Positions 2 through 8,284 of a stretch of 12,792 bases of DNA are shown here, in pieces. Every line of letters starts with the position of its first letter. Positions within the stretch are counted from its first letter, which is position 1. Origin of the DNA: Methanosarcina sp. GTDB lineage: Archaea; Halobacteriota; Methanosarcinia; Methanosarcinales; Methanosarcinaceae. The notes under the pieces were generated by a model. That model had not been told where the DNA came from, did no database searches, and saw nothing but the letters and a program-made list of their open reading frames with translations. The stretch lies in NCBI GenBank assembly GCA_013330315.1, contig DUIO01000025.1:273-13064 (forward strand), read 5' to 3'. A program made the position numbers and the translations under genes.

Positions 2-337
2 CGGGTAAAAGTTCAATCTGAAGAAAGCAATAAGGCTGAATCCGGGATAGGTCGAGGGAATAATACAGAATCTAATACAGAATCCGGGGCTGGAAAATTA
101 CCTGGATTCGGGGTAAAAATCAGTCTCGAAAAGAAGAACGCAGTGACGGAGAAGTTTCCTGAGGAAAGGCTTGAGGATGAAATTCCTGCAGTCGGAATAT
201 TTCCAGATGACAATCTTTCGGACGAAAAACCCTCCAGGACTCCGGATAAAGCCGTAAAACCGGTAAAGCAGAGCCAGAAAAAAGGAAAAGAAAAGTCTGC
301 AGTACCCAGACAGTATAACCTTGGTGATTACCTGTGA
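2..337 (+). CDS. mre11: Mre11 nuclease, C-terminal tail (5' end outside window)
   Basis: An open frame enters from the left edge and runs without a stop to TGA at 335-337. Only the last 111 residues are present, so none of the phosphoesterase motifs can be checked. The visible part is hydrophilic and low in complexity (Glu/Lys/Ser/Asn-rich), as expected of the poorly conserved linker and tail of archaeal Mre11, and ends in the more hydrophobic motif QYNLGDYL. The identification rests mainly on context: the stop overlaps the GTG start of rad50 (GTGA at 334-337), and mre11 directly upstream of rad50 is the usual archaeal order. In the family, Mre11 is a Mn-dependent 3'-5' exonuclease and endonuclease whose C-terminal part docks onto the Rad50 coiled-coil base. 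A separate gene starting at an internal codon (for example GTG 140, read with ACG 143 next) is less likely, because the frame is open from the window edge. Confidence 0.8.
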   Translation, partial: RVKVQSEESNKAESGIGRGNNTESNTESGAGKLPGFGVKISLEKKNAVTEKFPEERLEDEIPAVGIFPDDNLSDEKPSRTPDKAVKPVKQSQKKGKEKSAVPRQYNLGDYL

Positions 338-3300
338 AGCTGAAAAACCTGTATATAGAAAATATCCGGAGTTATAAAAAACTGGACTTCACTTTCGATG
401 ACGGAGTGACCGTGATTTCCGGAGTAAACGGTAGCGGGAAATCAAGCCTGCTTGAAGCCTGCTTCATGGGGCTTTTCGGGAGCAAAATTCTCTCAAAGGA
501 CTTTGTTCTTGCGGATATGATTTTTAAAGGAGCTGAGAATGCAAAGATCAACCTTGGCTTTGAACATCTCGGGCGGGAATACCTGCTTGAGCAGGCTTTC
601 AGGTACTCTTCAAAAAGTGAAAATGCTTCAAGCTCAAGGTGCGTACTTTTTGCTGACGGGGAAAATATTGTTGACCAGGCAACCCGCACTTATGAAGAAG
701 TCTGTGCCCTCCTGAATATGGATGAAGAGGCATACAGGAACTGCGCATATATCCGGCAGGGCGAAATTGACGTACTGATCAATGCAAAGCCAAAGGACAG
801 GCAGCGAATGATTGACGATTTGCTCCAGCTCGGAAAGCTTGAGGAATACCGTGAAAGGGCAGGATACGCTAAAACGGCCGTTAGAAGGCTTGAAAGAGAC
901 ACAAAAAATAATATCTCGGGAGTAAAAGCCGAAATCGAAGGGATCGAAAGTACCGAGCCCGTTATAGCTCTCAATAAGCTAAGGCAGAAGGTAAAGGAAA
1001 CGGACACTATCCTGAACGATCTTAACAATAAAAAAGAATTTGCGGCTGCACGTAAAGGAGAGCTCGATCTCAAAATTGCCGAATACAGGGAACGCCTGCA
1101 GGAAATTGAACTTTTGAAACAGGCAATACTTAAGTTTCAGGAAGATAAAGCCAGCTGCTTTAAAGAAAAGGAAGCCTTTTCAGGGGAGGTCCAGGGACAC
1201 AGGCGCGTTTTACTTGAACTAGGAGAAGAAAATTCCGGCTTGAGAGAAGAATGCGGTTTTGGAGACCTTGAAATTGAGGCTCTGCTTTTGCTCCAGGAAA
1301 AAGAGGAGTCATCTGCCAGGGAAAAAATAAGTGCAGAATCAAAAGAACTTGCTCTCCTCCTGAAAGAGGAGGAAACCGGTATTCAGGCATTGCGCGAACT
1401 TGAAAAAGAAAAAGCTGAAACCGAATTTACTCTTGTCGAATGCAGAAACAGTATCGGGGCTGCGAATAAGGAGATCGAAAGGTACAGGGAAAATATAAAG
1501 CAGCTAGAAGAGGAAAATAAAGGGCTGAGGGAAAAAGCAGGTTTTGGGACTGCCGATGAAATCGTTTCAATTATAAAGAAACTTGAAGAAGAGGAAAGCT
1601 TCCTCAGAGATCGGAAAAATGAAGTCTCGACAAAACTCGGACTTGCACTTAAGGAACAAGAGACCAGCGATACAACCATTTGCGAGCTTGAAACTGAAAT
1701 GCAAAACTGCGAAACTGCAATCCGGAAAGGGAGTACGGAAATTGAGGCGCTTGAGCAGGAACTCAGGGACAACTCAAAAGCAGTGCTGGATATTCAGGAG
1801 CAGAAATCTGGAGTTTTTGAGGGGCTGAAAACTCTCGGATTTACCGGAAATCAACTTGAAAATCTGGAAGATTTCAATGAAATTTTGCTGGAAAACAAAA
1901 ACCGGCTGCATGGAAAAGAGAAAGAGATTGAGGCTACCTTAAGGGAAATTGAAAATAGCCTCCGTAAAAACCAGGAGCTGCTCGCGGAAGGAAAGTGCCC
2001 TACCTGCGGGCAGGAGTTAAAAGGGTCAGAAGTTGCATGCACTGCAGAAGAATGCGAACAGAAAAAAGAAAAGCTTTCTTCGGAGCTTAAGGACATAAAA
2101 CTTCAAAGTGCTGAACTTGAGAAAAAGCTCAACCGGCTCAAGGACGCAAAAAAGCTGGATAAACAGATCTCTGATTACGACCTCGAAATTGAAAAGCTGG
2201 CTGAAAAGTCAAAAGCTTCAGGAAAACTGATAGAGACTCATAGAGTCCGGATAGAAGAAGAGTCCCGTAAGCTTGAGACGCTTAATAGGCGGAAACAGGA
2301 ACTTGAAACCGTAAGAGACCAGCTCACTTCAGGTATTAAAGCTCTGCAGGACCAGGAAGGTGCGGCTCAAAAAGCTCATGCTGAAAGTGAAAATGCTCTC
2401 CGGGAAGCTAAAGTTTTTGAACGAAAACTTGCCGAAAATGCCTCTGAAATCGAATCTCTGGGCGGTAAAATCCGGACATCCCTTGCGCTTATAGAAAATT
2501 ACGGGCAGAGACTTGAAGAGCTCAACGAAAGACTAAAGGCGTTTACAGATAAGGAAGCCCTGTCAAAAGAAAAACTTAAAGCTCTCGAACTTGCCCTTGA
2601 AGCTGTTCGGAGAAAAGAGGACGACGCAAGAAAAGCCCATGCCGAAAGCGAAAGGCTTCTCGGGCAGGCAAAAAAGCTTCAGGCCAACCTGCTCCATATG
2701 GAAGGCATCAGGCACAAGATATCCGAGCTTGAGGCCGGAATACGAAGCCTTTCAGAAAAAATAAGTCTCTTCGACCGTGAAATCCTTGAACGAAGCGACA
2801 GAAAAAGGCAGCTTGAAGGAAAACTGGAAGGAAATAAGCTTGCAGAACTCCAGCAGAAGCGTGCTCAGTTTGAAGAAGCATATGCAAATATTACAGAGAG
2901 AGCCAGGGAAGTAACTGCTGGGAAAGATGCTTTTCTAAAAGAAATAGGCATGATTGAAAACAGCTTAAAGCGTTTGAAGGAACTTAAAGAAGAACTGAAA
3001 GCTCTTGAAAACAAAAGGCTGTACCTTGAAGCCGTATATAATAACGCTGACGAGCTTGAAAATACCTATACGCGCGTCAGGGCTGATATGCGGGCAAGGA
3101 ACATAGGGGCACTTTCTATCCTTTTGAATGAGATGTTTGGTTTTATGTATACAAATAATGCGTATTCCCATATCGAGCTTGACCCCGAATATAACTTGAC
3201 GGTTTACAGAAAAGACGGCACACCTCTCGAGCCCAAACTTTTGAGCGGGGGAGAGCGTGCAATCTTTAACCTTGTACTGCGCTGCGCTATCTACAGGCTT

Positions 3301-3558
3301 CTTGCCCTTGGTTTTGGTGGAGATAAGCCGGACGGGCTTCCTCCGATGATCCTTGACGAGCCCACAGTTTTCCTTGACCGCGGGCATGTCAGGCAGCTTT
3401 TGAAACTCATAGACATGATGCGCAGCATCGGAGTGGGGCAGATCATAGTGGTTTCCCACGACGAGTCCCTTATAGATTCTGCTGACCATGTCTTCCAGGT
3501 TGAAAAAGACCCTCTTACCAATATGTCATCGATTACAAAGATCAGAAATAAACTTTAA
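334..3558 (+). CDS. rad50: DNA double-strand break repair ATPase Rad50
   Basis: A complete 1074-residue SMC-like ABC ATPase. It forms the ATP-driven clamp of the Mre11-Rad50 complex, which tethers and processes DNA ends. Motifs in order: Walker A GVNGSGKSS (residues 30-38); Q-loop YIRQGEID (from 139); a first coiled coil (about 170-550); zinc hook CPTC (Cys555, Cys558) for dimerisation through a shared Zn; a second coiled coil (about 570-930); ABC signature LLSGGER (about 969-975); Walker B MILDEP (1005-1010) with the D-loop FLD after it; and H-loop VVSHDE (His1042). All catalytic motifs are intact. The GTG start at 334 overlaps the mre11 stop, so translation is probably coupled; the nearby sequence offers no better start. 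The coiled coils carry internal duplications: GLRE-x2-GFG recurs 95 residues apart (302 and 397) and KAHAESE recurs 87 residues apart (680 and 767). A second Cys pair (C569, C574) follows the hook. Confidence 0.98.
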   Translation: MKLKNLYIENIRSYKKLDFTFDDGVTVISGVNGSGKSSLLEACFMGLFGSKILSKDFVLADMIFKGAENAKINLGFEHLGREYLLEQAFRYSSKSENASSSRCVLFADGENIVDQATRTYEEVCALLNMDEEAYRNCAYIRQGEIDVLINAKPKDRQRMIDDLLQLGKLEEYRERAGYAKTAVRRLERDTKNNISGVKAEIEGIESTEPVIALNKLRQKVKETDTILNDLNNKKEFAAARKGELDLKIAEYRERLQEIELLKQAILKFQEDKASCFKEKEAFSGEVQGHRRVLLELGEENSGLREECGFGDLEIEALLLLQEKEESSAREKISAESKELALLLKEEETGIQALRELEKEKAETEFTLVECRNSIGAANKEIERYRENIKQLEEENKGLREKAGFGTADEIVSIIKKLEEEESFLRDRKNEVSTKLGLALKEQETSDTTICELETEMQNCETAIRKGSTEIEALEQELRDNSKAVLDIQEQKSGVFEGLKTLGFTGNQLENLEDFNEILLENKNRLHGKEKEIEATLREIENSLRKNQELLAEGKCPTCGQELKGSEVACTAEECEQKKEKLSSELKDIKLQSAELEKKLNRLKDAKKLDKQISDYDLEIEKLAEKSKASGKLIETHRVRIEEESRKLETLNRRKQELETVRDQLTSGIKALQDQEGAAQKAHAESENALREAKVFERKLAENASEIESLGGKIRTSLALIENYGQRLEELNERLKAFTDKEALSKEKLKALELALEAVRRKEDDARKAHAESERLLGQAKKLQANLLHMEGIRHKISELEAGIRSLSEKISLFDREILERSDRKRQLEGKLEGNKLAELQQKRAQFEEAYANITERAREVTAGKDAFLKEIGMIENSLKRLKELKEELKALENKRLYLEAVYNNADELENTYTRVRADMRARNIGALSILLNEMFGFMYTNNAYSHIELDPEYNLTVYRKDGTPLEPKLLSGGERAIFNLVLRCAIYRLLALGFGGDKPDGLPPMILDEPTVFLDRGHVRQLLKLIDMMRSIGVGQIIVVSHDESLIDSADHVFQVEKDPLTNMSSITKIRNKL

Positions 3559-3703: not shown

Positions 3704-3762
3704 ATTACAAAAAACCTTGTAATATGTAAAAAAATAAAACCTGATGGGAAATTCATCCCATC
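3704..3762 (-). terminator. Probable terminator of the F420 oxidoreductase gene: two hairpins with T-tract
   Basis: Reading the minus strand, the stem GATGGGA / TCCCATC (3756-3762 with 3743-3749, six-base loop) spans the stop codon at 3753-3755. It is followed by TTTTATTTTTTT (about 3728-3739) and then a second perfect seven-base stem ATTACAA / TTGTAAT (3717-3723 with 3704-3710). Archaeal termination depends mainly on U-tracts, so the T-run is the more telling part. Termination is inferred, not observed. Confidence 0.6.
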
Positions 3763-4751
3763 TTCTTTAAAGCAGGTAAAACGTCTTTTCCGTACCTTTC
3801 AAGAAAAACTATCTGGTCCCCGGCTGCAGAATGGAAATAAAAATGTGTGAAACCTGCATCGATGTACTGCTTTACATATTCTATGTGCTTTTCAGGGTCT
3901 CCCGAAATACAGACTGATTTTTGAATAGTATCCCTGCCAACTACCTTGCCGTTTTGGGCAGACATCGCAGGAGTATAGATTTTATTCAGGAAAAGGGCCG
4001 GGATCATAGCCCCGGCCCAGTATTTTTTAAAGCTATCAACCACTTTTTCGGTATCATCTGTATACTCCACAAAAAGCTCCACGGCTTTTGGCATCTTCTC
4101 AAAATCTCTGCCTGCATCAGTAGCCCCTCTTCTGACCTCAGAGAGCATCCTTTCATATTCCGGTATCTCAAGAGACCCTCCTACGGTAATGAGGCCGTCT
4201 CCATAATACCCGGCAAGATAGGCGCTTTCCGGAACAAGGGAAGAAATGTAAATAGGAATCTCATTTTTGGGCAGGGTATAAAGTTTAGCCTGCTTTGTCC
4301 GATAATAGCACCCTTGAAAATCTACTTTTTCTCCTGTCCACAGGCTGCGGATAAGCTGTACGGCTTCTATCATCATTGCCTGGCGCTCTCTAAAAGTTGG
4401 CCATTCGTAAGTCACCGGATATTCGTTGAGAGCTTCCCCGGTTCCTACTCCAAGGTAAGTCCTGCCTCCCGCCAGAGAAGAGACTGTTGCTGCTGCCTGA
4501 GCAATAATTGCCGGATTATAGCGCAGGATCGGGCATGTAACCCCAGGACCCAATTCGATGGTTTCTGTCCTTGCAGCTGCAGCTCCAAGCCAGCTCCAGG
4601 TAAAGCATGCCTGCCCCTCTTCACTCCAGGGATGAAAATGGTCGCTAACGTCTATGCTTTCAAACCCATTCTTTTCGGCTGCAATTACCTGTTCCAGCAT
4701 TTCTAAAGGTGAAAACTGTTCAGGTCCAATTTTGTATCCTATTTTCAGCAT
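3753..4751 (-). CDS. F420-dependent oxidoreductase, glucose-6-phosphate dehydrogenase-like (LLM class)
   Basis: A complete 332-residue protein of the luciferase-like (beta/alpha)8 family that uses coenzyme F420 for hydride transfer. It aligns by eye along its whole length with actinobacterial F420-dependent glucose-6-phosphate dehydrogenase. The F420/active-site features are kept: SDHFHPW (Asp37, His38, Trp42), the segment ILRYNPA (75-81), and GVGTGEALNE with Glu106 in the place of the catalytic Glu109. The phosphate-binding pocket is not kept: the SGKG lysine region reads GGSLE, and the region of Arg283 (AKRW in the actinobacterial enzyme) reads QKSV. Glucose 6-phosphate is therefore an unlikely substrate; an alcohol or another small metabolite is possible but unproven. 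Start ATG at 4749-4751 is preceded by a G-run (4757-4762 on the opposite strand) at five bases, a good ribosome site. The gene stands alone, convergent with rad50. Confidence 0.9.
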   Translation of the reverse strand: MLKIGYKIGPEQFSPLEMLEQVIAAEKNGFESIDVSDHFHPWSEEGQACFTWSWLGAAAARTETIELGPGVTCPILRYNPAIIAQAAATVSSLAGGRTYLGVGTGEALNEYPVTYEWPTFRERQAMMIEAVQLIRSLWTGEKVDFQGCYYRTKQAKLYTLPKNEIPIYISSLVPESAYLAGYYGDGLITVGGSLEIPEYERMLSEVRRGATDAGRDFEKMPKAVELFVEYTDDTEKVVDSFKKYWAGAMIPALFLNKIYTPAMSAQNGKVVGRDTIQKSVCISGDPEKHIEYVKQYIDAGFTHFYFHSAAGDQIVFLERYGKDVLPALKKMG

Positions 4752-4798: not shown

Positions 4799-4914
4799 TA
4801 TTAATATAATATGATTTTAACGCTCTATGCAATATAACTGTGGAAAACTAATGAAGCTACGGAAGACAGTATTGGAAGATCTTAAAAAAAAGAGAGAACT
4901 TATAAAAATTCGGT

Positions 4915-5078
4915 GAGATAAAGTTCAATAAAAGATGAAAGGTTCAATAAAAAATGAAATATTTGGTAAAAGAGGAAATATTTGGTAAAAGATGAAAGAT
5001 TTAATAAAAGAAAAAAAGTATCAATAAAAGAGAAAAGGTTCAATGAAAACTGGTTCTGTAAAAAATGGTTCGATAAAA
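4915..5078. repeat. 19-bp degenerate tandem repeat, about eight copies
   Basis: The unit is close to GATGAAAGGTTCAATAAAA. Successive units start at 4915, 4934, 4953, 4972 and 4991 with an exact 19-base period, then 5010 and 5030 with 20 bases, followed by two shortened copies to about 5078. Copies differ at 3-7 positions and all end in a run of A. The array fills the spacer immediately 3' of the nuclease gene ending at 5103; on that gene's strand every unit contributes a TTTTA tract. The rest of the 4752-5102 spacer holds only the promoter noted above and a doubtful 21-codon frame (4851-4916, +). Confidence 0.85.
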
Positions 5079-5102
5079 TATCCGGTGGGCAATTTGGGCA
5101 GC

Positions 5103-5903
5103 TCACCAGTAAACAAGATAGTTGAACAGCTCGTCAGTCTGTTCTTTATATTCCCTGAAAAAGCTGTAGTCTTTTATCAGATACCCCTCTCCTTCGGGAG
5201 CAAGGTCTTCTAAATAGCCGTACCAGTAAACTACCATGCCCTCACCGAAGATGTCAGCGTATTCTCTGAATTGTTTTTTTGCATAATGCTTATGTTCGAA
5301 ATCATCCCCGAAGAGAGCTTTGCTTTCAATCCACCTGACCATATGGCCCTCTATGGGGATCGGATCAGATAGGACAAAGTCCGGGGTCTTGCCATCTCCC
5401 TGAGCTCTTATTTCAGCTTCGGTACAGTAAGAAATTCTCCTGTCATCAAGCCATTTGCGGATAATCTCTTCCCCCATTTCACCTTTTTTGCACTGCATTT
5501 CATGGGCGCGGGGTGAAAAGAAATAATCTGCGTCGAGGGCTTTTCTGATCTCTTTCCTCAGACGGCGGTTTTCTATACAGTCTAGATGCTTAAAGAGCCA
5601 GTTTATACTTTTTCGAGACATATCGCAGTTCTTGAGGATCAGAGAAGCCATGAGGGTTGGAGGAAAATATGTGTGTTCCGCAAGTTCGAGAATAGACCTT
5701 CCCTGCTTCCATCTCAAAAAGAGTTCCTTTTCCCTGGAATAGACCTTCCTGTGCTTGAACCTGGTCATCTTCACTACCTTCTGATTAAGAATGGTAGCAA
5801 TCATGCCTGCAGGCCTGGTATGTTCTTCTGAGAGACGGAACACGTCTCCAAAGTTATGCAGTGAATTGTATATTTTCTGGTATGTCTGGCGGTCCATCCT
5901 CAA
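5103..5903 (-). CDS. CDIN1 (C15orf41)/TPD-motif family predicted nuclease
   Basis: A complete protein of about 266 residues. I recognise it as an archaeal member of the family containing human CDIN1 (C15orf41), defined by a TPD motif. The N-terminal half (about 1-125) is basic and helical and probably holds helix-turn-helix DNA-binding segments (for example GRSILELAEHTYFPPTLMAS around 68-87). The C-terminal half has a PD-(D/E)XK-like nuclease core: helix KKGEMGEEII (Glu142, Glu145, Glu146), TPDF (Thr173-Pro174-Asp175), WIESK (Glu193-x-Lys195), and the helix with Gln211. All expected catalytic residues are present, so it is probably an active metal-dependent nuclease. The start is TTG 5903, with AGGG nine bases upstream; ATG 5897 is the alternative, and TGA at 5904-5906 excludes anything further upstream. 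Proximity to mre11-rad50 is suggestive but there is a gene between them. The substrate is unknown. Confidence 0.85.
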   Translation of the reverse strand: MRMDRQTYQKIYNSLHNFGDVFRLSEEHTRPAGMIATILNQKVVKMTRFKHRKVYSREKELFLRWKQGRSILELAEHTYFPPTLMASLILKNCDMSRKSINWLFKHLDCIENRRLRKEIRKALDADYFFSPRAHEMQCKKGEMGEEIIRKWLDDRRISYCTEAEIRAQGDGKTPDFVLSDPIPIEGHMVRWIESKALFGDDFEHKHYAKKQFREYADIFGEGMVVYWYGYLEDLAPEGEGYLIKDYSFFREYKEQTDELFNYLVYW

Positions 5904-6415: not shown

Positions 6416-7156
6416 TTAACTCCAGAACTCTTCTTCGTTATCGGGAAGATCTATTTCCATTACCTCATCAAGCCTTTTACGCTTTTCCCTGTTTTCAGCC
6501 ATTTTTCCTGGTTTTTCTTCCCTGCCCGGAGGATAAATATTTTTCTTTTCTTCCTCATTGCAGGACGCAAAGATTGTTGCATGCTTATCCCTGGAAATTA
6601 CTCTCTCCTGGACTTTCGGCTTTTCCTGAGCCTTTGGTTGTGGCTTTGCGTATATGATCGGATTCTCTTCAACAGGATCCTTTTTCAGTCTGGCTTCAAG
6701 TCTGAGGGAAGCTTTTTCAGCTTCGATACCAGCATGTCCTTTTTGCAGCTTTTCTCCGTGGTCTTCTTCAGGACTTTTTTCAGGTTTTGTATCCACAATG
6801 TTTTCGCGGCATCCAAAAAATAATTTTTGAGTGTCTTTTTCTGCGGTGTGGGAATGCTCTTCTTCTCTCTCAAGACGTCTTTCCTGAGGTCTTTCTACCG
6901 GCCTGGTTGGCGTCCAGTCTCCTTTTTCAGAGACGTTTTTCCATCTTGGAAGAGGCTGCCTCCCTCGCTTGCGGAAGGTATCTTCGGCATATGTATCTCT
7001 GTTATGCTCAGCATTTCCGGACCTGACTTTGCTTGTTGCGTTATAGCCTATTAAACAGGTGGGTTCCCTTGTTCTCCATTCCAGGCAAAAGAGGTGGCAT
7101 TCCCGCCCTTTGCATGATTGGGCTATATCAAGTGGACAAACTTCTGGAAGGGCCAT
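6416..7156 (-). CDS. Cys-rich N-terminus/disordered charged protein, function unknown
   Basis: A predicted 246-residue protein that I do not recognise. The first 40 residues hold a compact cysteine cluster (C7, C15, C20, C24, C34; pattern C-x7-C-x4-C-x3-C-x9-C, including KGRECHLFCLEW), which looks like a zinc or Fe-S binding knuckle. From about residue 45 on it is low in complexity, rich in Glu, Lys, Arg and Pro, and probably disordered. It ends in an acidic-aromatic tail, DLPDNEEEFWS, resembling protein-docking tails. No signal peptide or membrane segment is seen. I chose ATG 7156 because the cysteine motif starts just after it. An upstream TTG (7210) would add 18 residues with no ribosome site. 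A TATA-like element (TTTTTTATATTC, about 7173-7184 on the opposite strand) lies about 25 bases upstream of this ATG, so the transcript could be nearly leaderless. It lies on the same strand as the CDIN1-like gene, but 500 bases away. Confidence 0.7.
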   Translation of the reverse strand: MALPEVCPLDIAQSCKGRECHLFCLEWRTREPTCLIGYNATSKVRSGNAEHNRDTYAEDTFRKRGRQPLPRWKNVSEKGDWTPTRPVERPQERRLEREEEHSHTAEKDTQKLFFGCRENIVDTKPEKSPEEDHGEKLQKGHAGIEAEKASLRLEARLKKDPVEENPIIYAKPQPKAQEKPKVQERVISRDKHATIFASCNEEEKKNIYPPGREEKPGKMAENREKRKRLDEVMEIDLPDNEEEFWS

Positions 7157-7423: not shown

Positions 7424-7798
7424 TCATTTCGGTTAAAGACGTTAAAGGGCAAATTGTAGCTTTTTTACCTAATTGAGTTGGAACGGGGGATAACGGATGA
7501 AGGGGCATTTTGAATTAAATTTTCATGATACGTTGAGGTTCAAAAAACGGTAGATTTGTTATTGAACTTTAATTTGACAGATGCATAAATATTAAAATGA
7601 ATATCTGGGCTTCACACTCCGGTTTTTCTCATATATTCGAAATTTCTATGCTGTATTCTCTGATTTTCACTATTTTTCACTTTTCTGAAAAATTCTATGC
7701 AGATGAAATAAGTTTTTTGCCAGAAAATACTCTATTAATTAGTGAATTCCGTCAAATTAGGATTAAATAGGATATTTGCTAAAATAAGAGTAACGATT
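7424..7798. other. AT-rich spacer upstream of the VOC gene
   Basis: No gene supported on either strand. A TATA-like ATTAAATAGG (about 7762-7771) lies about 30 bases before ATG 7799 and might serve as its promoter. A GTG at 7742 is in frame with the VOC gene, but the 19 extra residues do not resemble the family. Confidence 0.4.
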
Positions 7799-8284
7799 AT
7801 GAAATCAAAAAAATCTGCACTACTAAGAATGGACAGTGTCGGCATTGTTGTTGACGACCTCAAAACTGCTATCGCGTTCTTTACAGAACTTGGTCTGGAG
7901 CTAGAAGGCGAAACGACAGTTGAAGGACGATGGGTCGACCGAGTCGTTGGGCTCGATGGTGTCAGAAGCGACATTGTGATAATGCGGACTCCCGACGGCC
8001 ATAGCAGACTTGAACTGAGCAAGTTCCGGACGCCTCTGGCGCAGAGCGCCGAGCCAAACGCGCCGGTGAACACGCTCGGTATACGTCGCATCATGTTCGC
8101 CGTCACGGACATCGACGACGTTGTTGCTCGCCTGCAGAAGCTCGGGGCCGAACTTGTTGGCGAGGTGGTACAGTACGAGGACATATACCGACTCTGCTAC
8201 CTCCGCGGCCCCGAGGGCATTCTCGTCGCGCTGGCCGAACAACTCGGCAATAAATCGACAGCGGATGTTTTAGGAAATTCTTAA
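7799..8284 (+). CDS. VOC (glyoxalase/bleomycin-resistance fold) family protein, probably acquired
   Basis: A predicted 161-residue protein with two beta-alpha-beta-beta-beta modules: the first starts at MDSVGIVVDDLKTAIAFF (from 11) and the second at RIMFAVTDIDDVVARL (97-112). The family includes glyoxalase I, dioxygenases and resistance proteins. Of the usual metal ligands, Glu72 (SRLELS) and Glu147 (VALAEQ) are present. The first-strand position, often His, is Ser13 (DSVGIVV), and the second module's first strand also lacks a clear His. Metal binding is thus uncertain and the substrate cannot be named. ATG 7799 is preferred (weak AAGAG upstream); in-frame GTG 7742 and ATG 7829 are alternatives. 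From about 7840 to 8250 the sequence is visibly G+C-rich with many C/G-ending codons (CTC, GTC, GAC, CGC), unlike its AT-rich neighbours. This suggests horizontal transfer, probably from a bacterium. The transposase-like remnant downstream fits that. Confidence 0.85.
   Translation: MKSKKSALLRMDSVGIVVDDLKTAIAFFTELGLELEGETTVEGRWVDRVVGLDGVRSDIVIMRTPDGHSRLELSKFRTPLAQSAEPNAPVNTLGIRRIMFAVTDIDDVVARLQKLGAELVGEVVQYEDIYRLCYLRGPEGILVALAEQLGNKSTADVLGNS

Follow-up and report, generated by a model that had tools for sequence, protein, structure and literature searches.

Introduction

Mutations in CDIN1 (CDAN1-interacting nuclease 1) cause congenital dyserythropoietic anaemia type I, and the protein it encodes, also named C15ORF41 and predicted to be a nuclease, belongs to a family with members in archaea. 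PMC7092493 places the roots of C15orf41 earlier than those of its partner, Codanin-1, and extends its range to the Euryarchaeota. RecB-like nucleases are defined by a set of four motifs (GxxxE, PD, (D/E)xK, and QxxxY; PMC2602864). Here we describe a family member encoded in a 12,792-nucleotide stretch of Methanosarcina sp. DNA (contig DUIO01000025.1, forward-strand positions 273 to 13,064), referred to below as the window. The protein is a single-copy member of the TPD/CDIN1 family and, on balance, a putative metal-dependent housekeeping DNA nuclease, in which a DNA-binding-like N-terminal module precedes a PD-(D/E)XK domain with the RecB-like motif set. An earlier prediction, made from the DNA letters alone and referred to as the original prediction, had proposed a CDIN1-family nuclease with intact catalytic residues, lying near mre11-rad50 and next to an unrecognised protein.

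Family membership and start codon

The Pfam family PF14811 (TPD) matched residues 112 to 246 of the protein in its 266-amino-acid reading (E = 1.7e-50), with the alignment spanning positions 2 to 137 of the 138 in the profile; the score of 170.8 bits exceeds the cut-off (27), so the match is not due to chance. An NCBIfam scan of the protein gave no match. Mammalian CDIN1 (P0131) is 32% identical to the window protein over 234 columns, and 49 archaeal sequences, made into a profile, recovered all 120 CDIN1 proteins that were fetched, with E values from 1.2e-53 to 1.7e-36. These 120 were the best of 840 found using the human protein; they are mutually close, come mostly from named vertebrates, and represent vertebrates and not eukaryotes at large. 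The K-T-P-D motif occupies residues 170–173, which puts the TPD motif recognised earlier at 171–173, and 195 of 196 archaeal rows retain its P and D; a TAG codon cuts short the remaining one. These data bear out the proposed family membership. Its novelty had been overstated: the best database protein, 92% identical over its full length, already carries the NCBI name "C15orf41 family protein" (Methanosarcina mazei), and the window protein is an ordinary orthologue of a family already annotated and published in archaea. A sequence search for relatives of solved structure gave no credible match, and an alanine racemase row (E = 0.0054) covering 73 helical positions was set aside.

The longest mechanical open reading frame (ORF; 5103–5903, minus strand) begins at a TTG at 5903 and has 266 codons for amino acids. 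Within this frame, an ATG at 5897 lies six bases inside the TTG. Every relative traced in the Methanosarcinaceae and in family f2 has an ATG at the 5897 column, as found with a script that favoured an ATG within a few residues, and for this reason the true start is most likely ATG 5897 rather than TTG 5903. The frame given in the original prediction therefore exists, with its start moved. Residues are numbered here from ATG 5897; numbers from the 266-residue reading are two higher. The source genome, rated 61% complete, contains a single TPD copy.

Active-site motifs

Conservation of the active site was assessed across 265 archaeal loci, which yielded 196 distinct sequences. E143, D173, E191 (D in 12), K193, Q209, and Y213 occur jointly in 195 of these; the sole sequence lacking the full set comes from locus L049, where an in-frame TAG beyond E143 cuts it short, and E143 itself is present in all 196. 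The equivalent residues of mammalian CDIN1 (P0131) are E166, D196, E214, K216, Q232, and Y236, and among the 120 CDIN1 proteins the first was found in 118, the second in 119, and each of the other four in all 120. D196 of C15ORF41 was mutated as the active-site aspartate, according to PMC7261414. Outside the active site, K40 and W63 of most archaeal members are replaced by E and Y in CDIN1.

Glu142, Asp175, Glu193, and Lys195 had been named as catalytic in the original numbering. The last three correspond to D173, E191, and K193 and are conserved, whereas Glu142 (E140) was misassigned. Its commonest letter varies by lineage (E, K, R, Q, D, H, or I in archaea; H, Y, or Q in CDIN1), and because of this variation E140 is, as judged from the alignments, not a conserved catalytic residue; E143 (145 in the original numbering) takes its place. 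With that substitution the PD-(D/E)XK signature (E143, D173, E191, and K193) is intact in the window protein, as had been claimed. A loose pattern for the four RecB motifs fitted 196 of 197 archaeal rows, in which the window protein was counted in two lengths, and 116 of 120 CDIN1 rows, compared with 81 of 20,000 shuffles of the window protein. By these pattern and alignment criteria, the TPD/CDIN1 family carries the four-motif set of RecB-like nucleases. In the limited literature collection searched, no paper joining C15orf41 to RecB was found, and the listed titles on QxxxY with RecB made no mention of CDIN1.

The same conservation bears on the question of whether the protein cuts its substrate. 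A nucleic-acid binder that retains the nuclease fold without cutting would agree with the literature examined, which reports no nuclease activity for any member of the TPD/CDIN1 family. Joint retention of six active-site residues in archaea and vertebrates, including a tolerated exchange between E and D at position 191, is hard to explain in a mere binder, so catalysis is favoured and a non-cutting role is very unlikely.

The interrupted gene at L049 (1423–2280, minus strand), another Methanosarcinaceae TPD gene, has a single in-frame TAG shortly upstream of the TPD motif. Archaea of the Methanosarcinaceae type can decode TAG as pyrrolysine, and the codon may either be read through or mark a broken copy.

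Predicted structure

The AlphaFold2 model of the window protein has a predicted local distance difference test (pLDDT) score of 93.9 and shows an order of elements typical of PD-(D/E)XK enzymes after a homeodomain-like helical module; the core fold of the superfamily was found in the model. The nuclease domain is preceded by a helix-turn-helix region, a feature also predicted in human C15ORF41, and residues 49–92 bear a weak likeness to the DNA-binding domain of gamma-delta resolvase and Hin. From the order of secondary-structure elements, the catalytic residues would be expected to cluster in space. Restriction enzymes, EndoMS/NucS, and Bax1 were among the 50 structural rows listed for the whole model; Foldseek alone returned no match at E ≤ 0.001.

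Hjc is a member of the PD-(D/E)XK superfamily; a QxxxY motif is not expected in Hjc. An Hjc-like resolving activity on Holliday junctions was suggested for the human protein in earlier papers, and PMC7261414 states the similarity of C15ORF41 to archaeal Hjc but also reports that Holliday junctions were not cut by the human protein. The QxxxY motif, a RecB-like hallmark in PMC2602864, is invariant in the family, and Hjc was absent from the 50 structural rows listed, which is weak evidence, as these are not a full search. The structural comparison recovered the PD-(D/E)XK-type order and, within those rows, no specific likeness to Holliday-junction resolvases. Taken together, this motif and the structural rows favour a likeness to RecB-like nucleases instead, and a resolvase of the Hjc type appears highly improbable.

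For the favoured housekeeping DNA nuclease, a mechanism can be outlined from the model and the conserved residues. E143, D173, and E191 would bind either one divalent metal ion or two, K193 would assist in the activation of water, and Q209 and Y213 may steady the nucleic acid near the active site. The N-terminal module would grip duplex DNA, and the enzyme would nick or trim damaged or branched DNA in the course of housekeeping genome maintenance. DNA is the presumed substrate because the N-terminal module is homeodomain-like and DNA enzymes are found among the structural rows.

Distribution and descent

Family members were found in 28 of 39 near-relative genomes (24/24 of the genus, 4/4 of family f2, and 0/11 others). 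The phylum as a whole gave 89 positive genomes of 294, all in families f1, f2, or f9, the last of which we take to be Archaeoglobaceae; one f1 genome, G255, has no family member. The phylum of a Thermoplasmata record gave 127 positive genomes of 243, and that of SZUA-158 gave 13 of 23. Each positive genome searched here had one TPD match, and Methanosarcina acetivorans was the sole match among 14 control genomes. In GTDB contigs, 344 loci were found with one peptide pattern, of which 80 were retrieved.

A quick tree was made from 77 sequences, and on it seven labels (among them THPL, THPw, and HYD, which are our own) together need 6 changes, the smallest possible number. Taken singly, HYD does not hold together (4 changes) and THPL requires 2 changes; because of long branches, the placement of CDIN1 is unsure. 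The tree fits mainly vertical descent of the family. These patterns are relevant to a role in defence or mobile elements, for which the fold, being near that of restriction enzymes, gives some reason. PADLOC returned no match, phage and plasmid collections had no TPD match, viral contigs scanned with two peptide patterns only gave 14 matches, none of which encodes a relative, and branching in the tree mostly agrees with lineage. A nuclease of defence or of mobile elements is scarcely credible.

Gene neighbourhoods

Genes were called in 176 loci, of which 167 had a TPD ORF; the nine without one under the simple gene caller were excluded from neighbour counts. Counts come from the stricter protein clustering, and gaps were measured from the profile-placed TPD start. 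Clusters were named by Pfam scans of five Methanosarcinaceae and two f9 members for the HhH-GPD glycosylase, two for aRF1, five for the NMD3-like protein, and one each for Pcc1, DHH/DHHA1, LeuRS, the CCA-adding enzyme, the rRNA dimethylase, the methyltransferase, and the disulphide oxidoreductase.

The gene order in loci labelled Methanosarcinaceae runs nnr - moaC - prs - c3 - (glycosylase) - TPD, where c3 is the unrecognised neighbour described below; within five genes of TPD, prs was found in 69/85, c3 in 63/85, moaC in 56/85, and nnr in 52/85. A HhH-GPD glycosylase gene (PF00730) stands at −1 in 45/85 loci and at −2 in 1/85. Of the 45 at −1, 27 overlap the TPD start by 8–20 bases and 18 end 0–24 bases ahead of it. 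The glycosylase gene does not adjoin TPD in the Methanosarcina loci or in four Methanimicrococcus loci; 14 of 18 Methanosarcina genomes have a copy elsewhere (45–49% identical). Rad50 is convergent at +1 or +2 in 32/85 loci.

Other lineages have other partners. aRF1 is at −1 in 8/8 ANME-2-labelled loci (seven distinct TPD sequences) and in 2/85 Methanosarcinaceae-labelled loci, with gaps of 7–17 bases. In f9, an unevenly drawn sample in which 6 of 22 loci (L260–L265) were chosen deliberately from genus g33, an NMD3-like protein is at −1 in 12/22 loci (seven overlapping), Pcc1 is at −1 in 6/22, always overlapping by 1–4 bases and with a DHH/DHHA1 protein upstream of it, and a HhH-GPD gene of the endonuclease III type is at −2 in 2/22; all six Pcc1 loci and both HhH-GPD loci belong to g33. 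Among THPL loci, 12/29 have a pyridine-nucleotide disulphide oxidoreductase gene at −1. A class-I tRNA synthetase cluster lies within five genes in 8/11 THPw loci (LeuRS in the one member tested), and HYD has an rRNA adenine dimethylase with a methyltransferase in 2/12 loci and a CCA-adding enzyme in 3/12. The upstream partner of TPD thus varies by lineage and falls within information processing, with no single pathway. The neighbourhood was rejected as proof of a pathway, because the upstream partner shifts with lineage and there is no genome-wide control.

Genes of the HhH-GPD family are scarce, numbering 1 to 5 in each of 39 related genomes, and their adjacency to TPD in two lineages is therefore worth noting, although the family was picked after looking and has no genome-wide control, and 7 of 8 relatives without TPD also have a copy (55–61% identical). 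In a Methanococcoides metagenome contig (L133, 7323–8783, plus strand), glycosylase and TPD lie in one open frame of 487 amino acids; as a fusion this was given little weight, since it comes from one metagenome contig and the ATG of TPD is retained. The overlapping or abutting glycosylase genes, this single frame, and the two f9 loci suggest a more specific reading, which we regard as distinctly unlikely: the CDIN1 family would be of RecB type and not a Holliday-junction resolvase, its ancestral activity would be the cutting of lesions opened by base-excision glycosylases, and human CDIN1 would be active if given that substrate.

The translation-related neighbours raise another possibility, that the protein acts as a nuclease on mRNA, tRNA, or rRNA in translation or in the quality control of ribosomes, with the CNOT1-like partner Codanin-1 reflecting an RNA role. 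Depending on lineage, aRF1, the NMD3-like protein, Pcc1, a tRNA synthetase, the rRNA dimethylase and methyltransferase, and the CCA-adding enzyme all lie near TPD, and the likeness of Codanin-1 to CNOT1 is argued in PMC7092493 and PMC11911400. Translation genes are, however, common and clustered, and these counts have no genome-wide control; the N-terminal module resembles homeodomains that bind double-stranded DNA, and the human complex did not cleave RNA, according to PMC7261414. An RNA substrate is the less likely alternative, and DNA remains the favoured one.

Two side observations concern the C terminus in f9, where TPD proteins mostly have a longer C-terminal extension (L054–L069). P0123, which is similar to f9 proteins, has a 50-residue C-terminal match to DUF488 (E = 4.6e-7); a DUF488 fusion was set aside, as this short match had no counterpart in L062.

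Other features of the window

Table 1. Coordinates of features in the window, with residues numbered from ATG 5897
Feature	Position	Strand	Description and basis
TPD/CDIN1-family gene	5103..5897	minus	264 amino acids, ATG start; Pfam, start tracing, CDIN1 alignment
N-terminal all-helical module, residues 1–122	5532..5897	minus	residues 1–48 homeodomain-like
PD-(D/E)XK nuclease domain, residues 125–250	5148..5525	minus	Pfam, predicted structure
E143, motif I glutamate in helix 129–152	5469..5471	minus	alignments; replaces Glu142 of the original prediction
D173, TPD aspartate (D196 in mammalian CDIN1)	5379..5381	minus	alignments; PMC7261414
E191-S-K193, (D/E)XK motif	5319..5327	minus	alignments
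Q209-x3-Y213, RecB-type QxxxY motif	5259..5273	minus	alignments, pattern; definition from PMC2602864
rad50	334..3558	plus	NF002572, 1193 bits (cut-off 1087); convergent with the TPD gene
Neighbour c3	6416..7156	minus	246 amino acids from internal ATG; four invariant Cys near the N terminus; no known family

The nearby rad50 gene was recovered as predicted (Table 1). Only a 111-amino-acid open frame overlapping the rad50 start represents mre11 in the window, and from its position it is taken as the putative mre11 tail. The adjacent unrecognised protein, c3 (cluster c47), proved to be real and conserved, with no match in Pfam and NCBIfam scans. Its Cys 7, 15, 20, and 34 are present in every one of the 65 rows aligned, which comprise 64 relatives and the window protein. 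The middle of c3 is long and variable and its C-terminal tail is acidic, a layout suggestive of a possible metal site and docking tail. Two genes interrupt an otherwise conserved order, encoding a luciferase-like F420-type oxidoreductase (3753–4751, minus strand) and a glyoxalase-fold protein (7742–8284, plus strand).

Rfam and tRNA scans of the window gave no match. Six promoter-like sites were found against 4.8 expected, the promoter type scanned not being archaeal, and six terminator-like sites, all on the plus strand, against 2.8 expected. Downstream of the TPD gene, the AT-rich segment at 4900–5090 has several near-repeats of aaaagatgaaa and ttcaataaaa, spotted by eye.

Discussion

Archaeal TPD proteins are small, two-part proteins with no known scaffold partner that keep the active site, which makes them good subjects for testing activity; their value is sharpened by the neighbour list, by the RecB-type motifs with their QxxxY pair, and by the reassigned glutamate (E143, which is E166 in mammals). 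Some archaea carrying TPD genes are genetically tractable. The gene neighbours suggest candidate substrates, with glycosylase-treated or abasic DNA first and then RNA of stalled or terminating ribosomes.

The original prediction had stated that archaea lack Codanin-1. A search for the Codanin-1 domain (PF15296) matched 0 of 39 genomes, but the positive controls also gave no match and the result is uninformative. Among described systems, the M. mazei C15orf41 family protein differs from the window protein only at the species level, and the two-part architecture is common to the archaeal member and CDIN1. EndoMS/NucS, a repair endonuclease present in the structural rows, is also counted among the closest known systems. 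With RecB-like nucleases the archaeal TPD protein shares the four motifs; it has no helicase domain and carries instead an N-terminal helical module of DNA-binding-like character.
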